From assembly GCA_016935315.1 (NCBI GenBank), contig JAFGRD010000139.1, positions 1-38,613 on the forward strand: 38,613 bases of DNA, given 5' to 3'. The notes beneath the pieces were generated by a model. It was not told the DNA's origin. It saw only the letters and a list, made by a program, of their open reading frames with translations, and did no database searches. This DNA is from Pirellulales bacterium (lineage in GTDB: Bacteria > Planctomycetota > Planctomycetia > Pirellulales > Thermoguttaceae). The translations under genes and the position numbers were made by a program. Positions 3,237-6,641 of this stretch are shown here, piece after piece; position 1 is the first letter of the stretch, and each line of letters begins with the position of its first letter.

Positions 3237-4571
3237 TTACAGAGACCACGGCGGCCGCGCCGCCCGCGTCAGCCTCAGCGAAGCCTCCGGATCGCCTACG
3301 AGCGTTTCCCGGACCGGATCCCAAGTGATCTTCCTCCCGACGCGGATGGCGATGTCCGAGAGATGGCTGATCAGGTCGGAGCGCACGGCGTCGTCAATGT
3401 GGCTGACCGGCGTCTGGCGGGTTCGCACGCATTCGACGAAGTTCCGCTCCTGGCCGCGGCTGACCGGGAGGCGAACGTCGTCGGGGCCGAGCACGCTGTT
3501 GCGCAGGCCGGCCGGCTCGCACTCCATGCCGCCATAGTACAGCGCGATCCAGCCTTCGGTACCGATCAGTTGGACGTAGTCGTCCCGTTGGGCCAGCCGC
3601 GGATCCTCCTGCTTCGCCACGCCGGTGGCCCAGTAGCGCATCGTCACTCCGCCCGAGAACCGGATGGCCACGTCCCAATCGACGACCGCGTCGTTGCACC
3701 CGTGCAAATCCACCACGCCGGTGCCCTCGACCTCCCACGTGCCGGCCCGATGGGTGTCGAAGGCCCATTGCAGCAGATCGAGAGGATGGGCTCCCCAGCC
3801 GGCGATGAAACCTAGGGCGTAGTCGTAGACGTGGTACCAGCCGGTCCCGCTGTCGGGACAGCCCGAATACGGCCGCCACGGTGCCGGCCCCAACCAGAGA
3901 TCGTAGTCCAACTCGGCCGGCACGGGTTTGGGCAGGCGGGAGCCGCCCCGGTCGCTATTGGGGGCTTTCACACGTATCTCGCGTATTTCGCCGATCCGCC
4001 CGTTGCGGACCAGCTCGCACCCCAGGCGGCAGGCCGCGATCGATCGGGCCTCGGTGCCGTACTGGAACACGCGATCGTAACGCCGCATCACCTCGCGACA
4101 CGTCAGGTCCTCGGCCACGCTCACCCCCAGCGGCTTCTCCACGCACACGTCCTTGCCGGCCTTGGCCGCCGCCACGGCAACGGGAACGTGCCAATGGTCC
4201 GGCGTGGCGATTCCCACCGCGTCGAGATCGTCCCGATCGAGCAGTTCGCGGAAATCGCGATACGTACGGCAATCGGTGTTCTGGTAATGCGTATCGACGA
4301 CGCCTTTGGCCTGCCGGACGACCGGCTCCCAGACGTCGCAGACGGCCACCAGTTGGGCCTCGGGACAGGTCAACTGCTCGTGGATGTTTACCTGGCCGCG
4401 CGGGCCGGTGCCGATGTAGCCCAGCACGGTCCGCTCGCTGGCCGGCGGCCTTCCCGCCTGGCCCAGTGCGGCCGAGGTAATCACGTAAGGCGCCGCGGCC
4501 ATGGAGCCCACGGCAGCGGCCCGCTTCAAGAAGTCTCGCCGGTTCCACGGCCGGTTCGTTTGCCCGTGCAT
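3237..4571 (-). CDS. Tat-exported Gfo/Idh/MocA family oxidoreductase (paralogue 3)
   Basis: A 444-aa Gfo/Idh/MocA oxidoreductase and the first gene of the triplet. The start at 4571 is chosen because a strong purine tract containing AGGAGG lies just upstream; an earlier in-frame ATG would put this tract inside the gene. The signal region has NRRDFLKR (about residues 10-17), then a small-residue hydrophobic core ending ITSAALGQ, typical of Tat export. The Rossmann loop is GTGPRG. The motif TPDHWHVP and the EKP catalytic-lysine segment follow, then WLGPAPWRPYSG in the C-terminal domain and the shared ending RAARPPWSL. A 404-bp spacer separates it from paralogue 2, so the triplet may not be one transcript. 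A structured-RNA locus is transcribed divergently upstream. Substrate unknown. Confidence 0.93.
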   Translation of the reverse strand: MHGQTNRPWNRRDFLKRAAAVGSMAAAPYVITSAALGQAGRPPASERTVLGYIGTGPRGQVNIHEQLTCPEAQLVAVCDVWEPVVRQAKGVVDTHYQNTDCRTYRDFRELLDRDDLDAVGIATPDHWHVPVAVAAAKAGKDVCVEKPLGVSVAEDLTCREVMRRYDRVFQYGTEARSIAACRLGCELVRNGRIGEIREIRVKAPNSDRGGSRLPKPVPAELDYDLWLGPAPWRPYSGCPDSGTGWYHVYDYALGFIAGWGAHPLDLLQWAFDTHRAGTWEVEGTGVVDLHGCNDAVVDWDVAIRFSGGVTMRYWATGVAKQEDPRLAQRDDYVQLIGTEGWIALYYGGMECEPAGLRNSVLGPDDVRLPVSRGQERNFVECVRTRQTPVSHIDDAVRSDLISHLSDIAIRVGRKITWDPVRETLVGDPEASLRLTRAARPPWSL

Positions 4572-4740
4572 TACTGGCCCTCCCTCCTGGGTTTTCGGAT
4601 TCGCACCCCCACTGCGCACCCAGTCTAATGGAATTTCCTCGCGGTGGCCAGCAACGCCGTGCCGGGATGCGTCTTCCGGGGCTTCTCGAGCAGGTCTTCG
4701 CGGAGCCGGAAAAAAATGAGAATCGGCCGAAAAACCGCCC

Positions 4741-4769
4741 TTGACTCAAAGCGGCAAATTCCATATTCT
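4741..4769 (+). promoter_or_regulatory. Sigma70-like promoter of the candidate structured RNA
   Basis: TTGACT (4741-4746) and TATTCT (4764-4769) are separated by exactly 17 bp, close to the housekeeping consensus. The predicted start, about 4776-4778, coincides with the 5' strand of a 10-bp helix. The promoter before rpsJ has almost the same hexamers (TTGACC, 17 bp, TATTCT), which supports both. The next annotated gene on this strand is more than 10 kb away, so the promoter most likely serves the RNA that follows. Confidence 0.6.
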
Positions 4770-4776
4770 CGCCGCC

Positions 4777-5085
4777 TCGTAAGTCAATTCACACCCTTGG
4801 CAGGGACCAGGAGTTGGCTTACGGCGGACAAGAGAACAAACGAAGCAATCCGCGTGGATGGGTCTGCATCCGGGGAGGTCGGGCCACCGGCATTCCTGCG
4901 GACCACGAAGCGAACCACCGCCCGCACGGAAGCAGGCGGCTCGCTTCGGACATACTACGAACGCTCGTCGAAACATCCGGCCCTCTCGCGTCCGGAGGTC
5001 TCGCACGTGAAGCGTCCAATCGCTCCCGGAAAAGTGTCGTGTCCTTCGCCCCCCTGGGACGCAGCCTTTCCGGGGGCCTTTTTTT
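4777..5085 (+). ncRNA. Candidate free-standing structured RNA, about 310 nt, family unknown
   Basis: A non-coding transcript is inferred from a promoter, consecutive strong helices and a terminator. The 5' helix pairs CGTAAGTCAA (4778-4787) with TTGGCTTACG (4814-4823), one G-U; its loop holds a hairpin CCCT-TGGC-AGGG and an unpaired ACCAGGAG. An A-rich linker and the hairpin ATCC-GCGT-GGAT (4848-4859) follow. GGTCTGCA (4861-4868) then pairs with TGCGGACC (4897-4904). CGAAGCGA (4906-4913) pairs with TCGCTTCG (4941-4948) and encloses CCGCCCGC/GCAGGCGG with one C-A mismatch and an ACGGAA loop. A terminator ends it. I see no RNase P, tmRNA or SRP signature. Reading frames on either strand look like unselected arginine- and proline-rich translations without a well-spaced ribosome binding site. 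It lies between the start of a Gfo/Idh/MocA gene and the end of glgC, convergent with glgC. Confidence 0.55.
5029..5085 (+). terminator. Intrinsic terminator of the candidate RNA
   Basis: GCCCCC (5048-5053) pairs with GGGGGC (5072-5077), followed by seven T (5079-5085). An alternative longer stem pairs CCCGGAAA(A)G (from about 5026) with CTTTCCGGG and encloses GTGTCC/GGACGC. Either fold places a GC-rich stem directly before the U-tract. It is oriented plus, so it cannot serve glgC, which is on the minus strand. Confidence 0.65.
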
Positions 5086-5271
5086 GCGCGATGGGCGCTC
5101 TTGCTGAAGGAGCACCGTTGCCCGCAAATGCACGGTTGCCTCGCCCTGAACCGGCGCCTCAAGGTGCGTGGCGGCGGCAAAGTGCAACGGCGCCTTGCGC
5201 CGCCCTGTCTTCCGCGATGTCGGTCGTCTCGGGCCGCGGGCTTCCGGCAGCGGCCGGACGATCAGCCCACG

Positions 5272-6552
5272 CTACGAGGCCTTGTGGTCGGCGCCGCGCG
5301 CCGCGCCCGGCTCCCCTTCCCCGAATTGTTCGACGCCGTCGGTCTTGGCAATCACGGTGACGTTGCTTTCGGTCACGGTGAAACCGCGCCGCCGATCGAG
5401 ATCGTGGTCGTAGCCGATTTCGATGCCTGCGGGAATCTGCACTTCCTTGTCAATGATCGCCCGGCGGATCTTCGCGTGTCGCCCCACATCCACCCCGTCG
5501 AAGAGGATGGAGTCTTCGATTTGGGCGTAGCTGTTGATGCGGGTGTTGAACGCCAGGATGGAGCGTTCGACCTGGCCGCCGGAGAGGATCGACCCGCCGC
5601 AGACTATGCTGTCCAGCGCCTGCCCCCGACGCGCCGGCGAGCCCTTCTCCGCGAAGACGAATTTCGGCGGCGGCAGATTGGGCTGGTAGGTGCGGATCGG
5701 CCAGCGGCAGTCGTACATGTTCAACTCCGGATCGACCGACACCAGGTCCATGTTGGCCTCATAGTAGGCGTCCAGCGTGCCCACGTCGCGCCAATAGGCG
5801 TCGCCTTTGAGGTTCTCGTCCCTGAACGGATAGGCGAACACCCGGTGCGTGCGGATGATCGCCGGAATCACGTCGTGGCCGAAGTCGTGGTTGCTGGCGT
5901 GTCGTGTGGCGTCGAGGCAGAGTTGCTCGAAGAGGAACCGGGCCGTGAAGACGTAGATCCCCATCGAGGCCAAGGCGTGCTCCGAATCGCCGGGGATCGG
6001 CTTGGGATCCTGCGGCTTCTCGTCGAACCCGATCACCCGCGAGTGCTCGTCCACCTGCATCACGCCCAACTGGTGCGCCGCCGCCACCTTGACCCGCAAG
6101 GCCCCGATGGTCAAATCGGCCTGGTTCTGGGCGTGAAAATCGACCAGCTTGCTGTAGTCCATCTTGTAGATGTGGTCGCCGGCGAGGATGGCCACGTGCT
6201 CGGGGCGCTCTTTCTCGATGGTGTAGATGTTCTGATAGACGGCGTCGGCCGTGCCCTGGTACCAGTGCTCGTCGATACGCTGTTGTGGGGGGACGACGTC
6301 GATGAACTCCCCTAATTCGCGGCAGAAGTACCCCTGCCAGCCCAGGTTGATGTGCCGGTCGAGACTCATTGCCTTGTACTGGGTCAAGACAAGGTGCTGG
6401 CGGATTCCGCTGTTGAGGCAGTTGGACAAGGCAAAATCGATGATTCGATAGGCACCGCCAAATGGAACCGCCGGTTTTGCCCGATCCCTGGTCAGCGGCT
6501 CCAACCGCGATCCCTTGCCGCCCGCCAGGATCACGGCCAACACGTTTCCCAT
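5272..6552 (-). CDS. glgC: Glucose-1-phosphate adenylyltransferase
   Basis: Makes ADP-glucose from ATP and glucose-1-phosphate, the committed step of bacterial glycogen synthesis, in the cytoplasm. The protein is 426 aa, the usual size. The start at 6552 has GAGG about 8 nt upstream and puts the nucleotide-binding segment LAGGKGSRLEPLT at residues 9-21, followed by KPAVPFGG (26-33); upstream in-frame starts would add an unrelated tail. Other family marks are WYQGTADAVYQN, GDHIYKMDY and FDEKPQ, then a C-terminal left-handed beta-helix region rich in hexapeptide-like repeats (VERSILAFNTRINSYAQIED). No other glg gene is in the window. Its upstream spacer holds a 14-bp stem-loop and a direct repeat that may be regulatory. 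Confidence 0.96.
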   Translation of the reverse strand: MGNVLAVILAGGKGSRLEPLTRDRAKPAVPFGGAYRIIDFALSNCLNSGIRQHLVLTQYKAMSLDRHINLGWQGYFCRELGEFIDVVPPQQRIDEHWYQGTADAVYQNIYTIEKERPEHVAILAGDHIYKMDYSKLVDFHAQNQADLTIGALRVKVAAAHQLGVMQVDEHSRVIGFDEKPQDPKPIPGDSEHALASMGIYVFTARFLFEQLCLDATRHASNHDFGHDVIPAIIRTHRVFAYPFRDENLKGDAYWRDVGTLDAYYEANMDLVSVDPELNMYDCRWPIRTYQPNLPPPKFVFAEKGSPARRGQALDSIVCGGSILSGGQVERSILAFNTRINSYAQIEDSILFDGVDVGRHAKIRRAIIDKEVQIPAGIEIGYDHDLDRRRGFTVTESNVTVIAKTDGVEQFGEGEPGAARGADHKAS

Positions 6553-6641
6553 ATTGTTTCCTCTGTTTGGGCTGCCTGCACAGAGTCGCTCTTCCGCGCA
6601 GTCTGCTTCCGTCAATTGTATTGATTTGGGCATTTGGCTAA

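Follow-up and report, generated by a model that had tools for sequence, protein, structure and literature searches.

Comparative sequence analysis supports the existence of a non-coding RNA gene, equipped with a promoter and a structure of its own, that is common to many planctomycetes. The member described here lies in a Pirellulales bacterium (Planctomycetota; Planctomycetia; Pirellulales; Thermoguttaceae; GCA_016935315.1), on a contig of 38,613 nt (JAFGRD010000139.1, our G000:C17) that belongs to a draft genome of 7.1 Mb and was analysed whole; we refer to this contig as the window. Positions 4732-5085 of the window make up a transcription unit of promoter, structured RNA and terminator, one member of a family in which two elements of the RNA are conserved, a C6 loop borne by the terminator hairpin and a hairpin with an ANGGAN loop. 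We suggest that the RNA is a trans-acting small RNA with a C-rich loop, usually single-copy and independent of Hfq, which resembles 6C/B11 and sX13 and in addition carries a dock for CsrA; to this reading we give an even chance. The preliminary description of the window had seen here a structured RNA locus with its own promoter and terminator, and this view is not only confirmed but extended to an RNA family.

The transcription unit and its surroundings

The RNA gene occupies about 310 nt of the plus strand (4776-5085), its start being predicted from the -10 box and its end being the terminator T run. It sits in a stretch without a convincing gene, between a divergent gene for a Gfo/Idh-like oxidoreductase (minus strand, from 4619 down) and glgC (5272-6633, minus strand), whose product scores over the curated cut-off as glucose-1-phosphate adenylyltransferase. 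The RNA had been taken to lie upstream of glgC; it actually adjoins the downstream side of that gene, and the two are convergent.

The promoter (4732-4769, plus strand) consists of an upstream box, AAACCG (4732-4737), a -35 element, TTGACT (4741-4746), and a -10 element, TATTCT (4764-4769), followed by a G+C-rich discriminator. TTGACT and TATTCT, with the 17-nt spacing reported in the preliminary description, form the sole sigma-70-like site in 4500-5400 (one found against 0.1 expected in shuffles). The transcription start had been placed at the first paired base; since TATTCT ends at 4769, it is rather to be expected near 4776, so that the first helix, which begins at 4772, probably has its outermost pairs ahead of it. 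Among the matches listed, the pattern TTGAC-N17..20-TAnnnT occurs within 420 nt upstream of the RNA in 105 of 112 loci, against 1.2 expected from dinucleotide shuffles, the 112 being those of at least 118 loci found by a pattern of the last conserved block that have enough upstream sequence; equal-length downstream stretches, where available, hold it once, again among the matches listed. Across 123 distinct promoters the upstream box reads AAA[C/T]CG, with the three A conserved at 81, 94 and 94%, the C at 77% and the G at 75%, and the 7 nt after the -10 element are 88% G+C. Such a G+C-rich stretch after the -10 element is a feature of growth-controlled promoters in other bacteria. Box and promoter together have one perfect match in the host's own genome, the studied site, and the idea of a promoter class common to other genes was rejected, three sites with up to two mismatches being found in that genome against one in a backward control.

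At the other end, the terminator with seven T noted in the preliminary description is borne out by a stem (5022-5032/5067-5077) and the T run that follows it (5079-5085, plus strand). Three terminator-like sites occur in 4500-5400, against 1.3 expected, and two of the three are the RNA's own terminator. None of 100 shuffles folds as stably as 4770-5085 (z -3.5). Because the opposite strand, too, gives a fairly stable fold (z -2.6, 1/100 shuffles as stable), stability alone is not decisive, and it is the homologues that decide. These argue against a protein gene, which we rejected: a check for a conserved frame among 129 long homologues, duplicates included, found none, only 17-19 of them being open through in any one frame. 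We would infer that the RNA is expressed in the cell.

Hairpins of the RNA

The terminal hairpin (5022-5077, plus strand) has an outer stem (5022-5032/5067-5077), an internal loop and an apical stem (5041-5044/5057-5060), and its apical loop (5045-5056, plus strand) holds a run of six C (5049-5054) within the sequence CCCCCCU. Directly before the stem lies CCAAUC (5016-5021, plus strand), which is unpaired and conserved, being altered in some families. None of 200 shuffles was as stable as the hairpin (z -4.1). Two covariance models were made of it, R1 from 43 sequences and R2 from 70, and in these the loop reads NNGCCCCCCU. The 43 come from an alignment (A3) of those among 148 terminal hairpins that have the commonest right-arm length, subsequently thinned; the 70 form an alignment (A6) of 70 matches in 70 chosen loci, fitted to R1 at E 1e-5, which leans toward the structure. 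The preliminary description had proposed a search for covariation, and it is present in both the terminal hairpin and the middle domain. For the terminal hairpin, 15 of 18 pairs in A6 change on both sides, 0/500 shuffles reach any of five covariation measures, and sliding the pairing partners lowers all five.

While the stems thus change in compensation, CCCCCCU is identical in 70/70 rows of A6, a constancy that partly follows from search models and a pattern seeded with that very loop. Much of the stem differs in some families (for instance GUCC/GGAC as against AUCC/GGAU, or GGUUC/GAACC), and the C run is lengthened to C7-C8 in one genus. Nothing would oblige a plain terminator to preserve its loop under changing stems, and the constancy of the loop therefore speaks against a mere terminator. 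That the C6 loop might pair with GGGGG in the RNA's own terminator strand was also considered and rejected: the loop is constant although this strand may read GGGGGC or GGGAGC, and the long-range stem accounts for the strand.

Upstream of the terminal hairpin lies a middle domain (z -3.1; 1/200 shuffles as stable) with two helices on the plus strand. P2 (4861-4904) pairs GGUCUGCA (4861-4868) with UGCGGACC (4897-4904) and continues in an inner stem; 95% of its cells are paired and 4 of 8 pairs change on both sides. P3 (4906-4948) pairs 4906-4913 with 4941-4948 and continues in an apical stem, at whose tip CACGGAAG (4925-4932, plus strand) presents an ANGGAN hexaloop (4926-4931) closed by C-G, a recognition element of the CsrA/RsmA type. 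RNAalifold, run unguided, recovers both helices and the tip of P3 with its C-G closure; it does not recover, on the same middle-domain alignment, a small hairpin (AUCC-loop-GGAU, 4848-4859, plus strand) that precedes the domain, with 78% of cells paired and two of four pairs changing on both sides. In that alignment (A4, 35 of 73 middle domains), with the structure as written by hand, 18 of 32 pairs change on both sides and 0/500 shuffles reach any measure; the removal by hand of 15 rows that fitted poorly biases this result toward the structure. Because its 73 source domains were found by CANGGANG, A4 is no evidence for that motif.

The evidence for the motif lies in its frequency. CANGGANG (C-ANGGAN-G) occurs in 105 of 113 long forms of the RNA, against 9.5 expected from shuffles, a long form being one whose 5' part, counted after removal of duplicates, measures at least 140 nt. 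Permuted motifs are at chance (11 and 7 RNAs against 8.8 and 7.4 expected), as is the reverse complement (6 against 5.7), and the bases outside the closing C-G can pair in 148 of 156 sites. Sixty of the 113 long forms carry one site, as the window RNA does, 39 carry two, six carry three and eight carry none. The ANGGAN hexaloop is the site described for CsrA/RsmA proteins in extracts of PMC3791407 and PMC7652899, the latter giving RUACARGGAUGU as a SELEX consensus, and the hairpin at the tip of P3 would accordingly be expected to bind CsrA.

The 5' part as a whole measures 12 to 394 nt across homologues. The window RNA begins with a stable hairpin (4772-4827, plus strand; z -5.3, 0/200 shuffles as stable) that exposes ACCAGGAG (4806-4813). 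The preliminary description had taken ACCAGGAG, in this first loop, for a possible Shine-Dalgarno mimic, an idea that finds no support, the hairpin being lineage-specific rather than conserved: it varies in homologues, and some of them (L004, L007, L010) have no room for it. Ten distinct short forms have a 5' part of 12-117 nt, eight of them of less than 60 nt; all keep the terminal hairpin, 0/10 have CANGGANG, and the shortest would be little more than the terminal hairpin. Since this hairpin is all that the short forms retain, we regard it as the core of the RNA. An extra C6 run is found in the 5' part of 7 of 123 distinct RNAs (with duplicates included, 11 against 5.8 expected, about twice as many), and for six of these seven RNAs the prediction puts the run in a hairpin loop. 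These six, whose second loop holds a run of six or more C, are L028, L029, L076, L104, L156 and L163; L028 and L156 have one CANGGANG each, and the other four have none. Among the eight long forms without CANGGANG, three (L029, L076, L104) have the second C6 hairpin loop and five have neither.

Distribution across the planctomycetes

A DNA search with the studied RNA, in which positions of about 108-208 and 271-345 of the query emerged as conserved blocks, gave E values below 0.001 in 45 of 60 relatives, the host's own genome included; that genome holds one full match, and its other hits are short fragments at E 0.047 or worse. A pattern of the last conserved block found at least 118 loci in a named genome collection. 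This pattern required the C6 loop, which the DNA and covariance-model searches favoured without requiring it. The matches listed are planctomycetes by title, except for one 'bacterium' and one Nealsonbacteria, and the isolates among them are Bythopirellula polymerisocia, Botrimarina colliarenosi, Botrimarina hoheduenensis, Aeoliella straminimaris and Lacipirellula limnantheis. Model R2 finds 151 of the 248 class genomes at an E value of 0.001 or lower; with family sizes taken from the full list of a class sample of the same size, the count is 68/70 for the host's family and order and 63/72 for family f21, and R2 further finds 16 genomes of f105 (13 at E 1e-12 or better), two of f108 and two weak ones of f104 (about E 1e-4). 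The picture is repeated in a sample of the phylum, where R2 matches 26 of 27 genomes of the host's order and f21, and no credible match was obtained among the 267 other genomes, one at 25 bits not being credited.

The 60 relatives include 45 with strong matches (E below 1e-10), and these are unevenly spread. Thirteen of 37 genomes in the host's family are without a strong match, though other families of the order nearly all have one; the contrast of 24/37 in the family with 21/23 elsewhere in the order indicates that the RNA was lost or has diverged in part of the family. Usually there is one strong copy per genome. G446 has four, and its contig C1 bears four terminal hairpins (L296-L299), three of which have altered stems and no promoter pattern in the examined stretch; either duplication and decay or specialisation would account for them.

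Neighbouring genes were clustered for 174 loci, a set in which some contigs appear twice, once from each of two sources, and in which contig ends cut many flanks short. In 28 of the 174, from the host's family to f21 and thus in at least two families, glgC is convergent and lies within 260 bp downstream, and it is perhaps the ancestral neighbour of the RNA. About 20 other loci have a KpsF/GutQ-type sugar-phosphate isomerase and a KdsC-type phosphatase downstream, one representative of each having been checked. That the neighbours vary suggests that the RNA acts in trans. Control of the convergent glgC by a cis element or by antisense pairing, which the window and the other loci with this arrangement might bring to mind, is for the same reason very improbable: other loci have other neighbours, the RNA's own terminator precedes glgC, and the conserved parts lie inside the RNA.

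Proposed function and alternatives

We posit that the RNA, transcribed from its own promoter and ending in a terminator hairpin with an exposed C6 loop, would use this loop to pair with G-tracts of target mRNAs, in their leaders or ribosome-binding sites, and so block translation. In the long form, the C-ANGGAN-G hexaloop hairpin would dock CsrA, which would either be titrated or help to hold RNA and mRNA together; the latter is proposed because most copies carry one or two sites. This regulation would work without Hfq. Profile searches are consistent with such a setting, Hfq (PF17209) being found in 0/118 genomes of the class, with 5 of 14 control genomes positive, E. coli and B. subtilis among them, and CsrA (PF02599) being found in 248/248, with 2 to 17 matches each. 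As Hfq was not found, CsrA is present everywhere it was sought and small RNAs with C-rich loops are known, we interpret the RNA as a silencer that acts by a C-rich loop and carries a dock for CsrA. The constant loop, the enriched CsrA-type site, the covariation and the Hfq/CsrA setting are supported by comparison of sequences; the pairing with G-tracts, the targets and the repression are what we would deduce from them. Weighing against the proposal are the lack of a CsrA-type site in 8 of 113 long forms and in all ten short ones, the single site of the window RNA, a surplus of further C6 runs that is only about twofold, and the 13 of 37 genomes of the host's family in which the RNA is lost or diverged. 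It is also conceivable, if doubtful, that an Hfq-free riboregulatory system extends across much of the class, with CsrA, which has up to 17 matches per genome, in the place of Hfq, docking on the RNA's hexaloop hairpin and bridging the RNA to the mRNAs that the C6 loop silences.

If it works as proposed, the RNA, widespread and with a constant C6 loop, a dedicated promoter and, in most long forms, a CsrA-type hairpin, would place small RNAs with C-rich loops in a further phylum, offer an entry to post-transcriptional control in bacteria with many CsrA copies in which Hfq was not found, and make a role of CsrA in the action of small RNAs directly testable.

The very features that suggest a silencer with a CsrA dock lend themselves to other interpretations. 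The strong and specific enrichment of CANGGANG in long forms, in a class where every searched genome has CsrA and many paralogues of it, could mean that the RNA is mainly an antagonist of CsrA/RsmA of the CsrB/RsmZ type, its ANGGAN hairpins sequestering the protein and its terminal hairpin just terminating and stabilising the transcript. We think this unlikely, as the short forms have the C6 loop but not the motif, a single site, as in most long forms, is little for a sponge, and a mere terminator would not hold its loop constant under changing stems. The studied RNA is like CsrB, RsmY and RsmZ in its C-ANGGAN-G hexaloop hairpin (here 4925-4932); it differs from them in having none to three sites rather than many, none at all in short forms, and in possessing a second and more conserved module, the C6 loop.

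That module might in turn be a binding site for a protein, formed by the C6 loop together with the unpaired CCAAUC, in which case the RNA would serve not as an antisense regulator but as a scaffold or a housekeeping ribonucleoprotein. A loop that stays constant while most stem pairs change would be expected of such a site, and the RNA has the single full match in its own genome and, apart from the host's family, the near-universal presence in the order that would suit this role. Nor is a G-tract signal at gene starts clear in the one sample searched (1.2 Mb, a quarter of G023): G6 lies at -25..+5 of 5 of 775 predicted genes, against 3 and 4 in two control intervals, and C6 of 1 of 775. No partner protein is known, however, C-runs in the hairpin loops of other small RNAs pair with G-tracts (extracts of PMC10470900 and PMC3771888), and the C7-C8 run of one genus is something that pairing tolerates; we place this interpretation at the same low level as that of a CsrA antagonist.

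The silencer reading draws on small RNAs described elsewhere. An extract of PMC10470900 describes B11, a mycobacterial RNA with two C-rich loops that pair with G-tracts of leaders, either loop being able to repress a leader with a six-G tract, and one of PMC3771888 describes sX13 of Xanthomonas, whose C-rich loops repress mRNAs with G-rich motifs near their starts, Hfq being dispensable. The studied RNA shares C-rich apical loops with sX13, which has three stems with such loops, and the two are likened by description, not by sequence. With 6C (RF01066)/B11 it shares a hairpin loop holding six or more C in a row, here 5049-5054. The 6C family has two C-rich stem-loops, and one study reportedly announces in its title the chaperone-independent binding of 6C sRNA. 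In contrast, the studied RNA normally has a single C6 loop, which sits on the terminator, and a second hairpin loop with C6 is predicted in 6 of 123 distinct RNAs; it is planctomycete, is not matched by the 6C covariance model, and its C6 loop is joined to a CsrA-type hairpin. Closer to the host, the Rhodopirellula-1 motif is a candidate structured RNA of planctomycetes as well, listed in 2010 without an Rfam number in its table row (PMC2864571); going by that row, its occurrence in Proteobacteria too and what seems to be a probable cis-regulatory role do not fit the studied RNA, but the two may be the same. Our literature search found no report of an RNA like the present one in planctomycetes. 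Small RNAs with C-rich loops and CsrA-binding RNAs are both known; what is new, as far as tested, is their combination, as well as the host class and the RNA family.

The RNA might also have diverged from within a known family, such as 6S, 6C, RNase P, SRP RNA or tmRNA, as the resemblance of the C6 loop to 6C RNA and a report, in an extract of PMC5673643, that 6S RNA is absent in relatives might suggest. We consider this the least probable of the interpretations, and extremely so. Rfam models at gathering score find nothing in the whole window or in 16 homologous loci, and permissive settings yield chance-level matches only, the best in 4700-5120 having an E of 0.34. The preliminary description, in which novelty was tied to the lack of an Rfam match and features of RNase P, tmRNA and SRP RNA had been sought by eye in vain, is in agreement with this, the models of these three being without match in the window and the 16 loci, as is that of 6S RNA (RF00013). 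Membership of 6C was rejected, its model being over the cut-off in 0/60 relatives, where the weak hits listed lie at other loci; one such place, L216 (G042:C1:133583-133659), differs from that of the studied RNA and scores 40.7 bits against a cut-off of 47. We likewise rejected the idea that the RNA is the missing 6S RNA, as the 6S models have their matches elsewhere in 7 of 60 relatives, three of them over the cut-off; the host's order may have a diverged 6S RNA.
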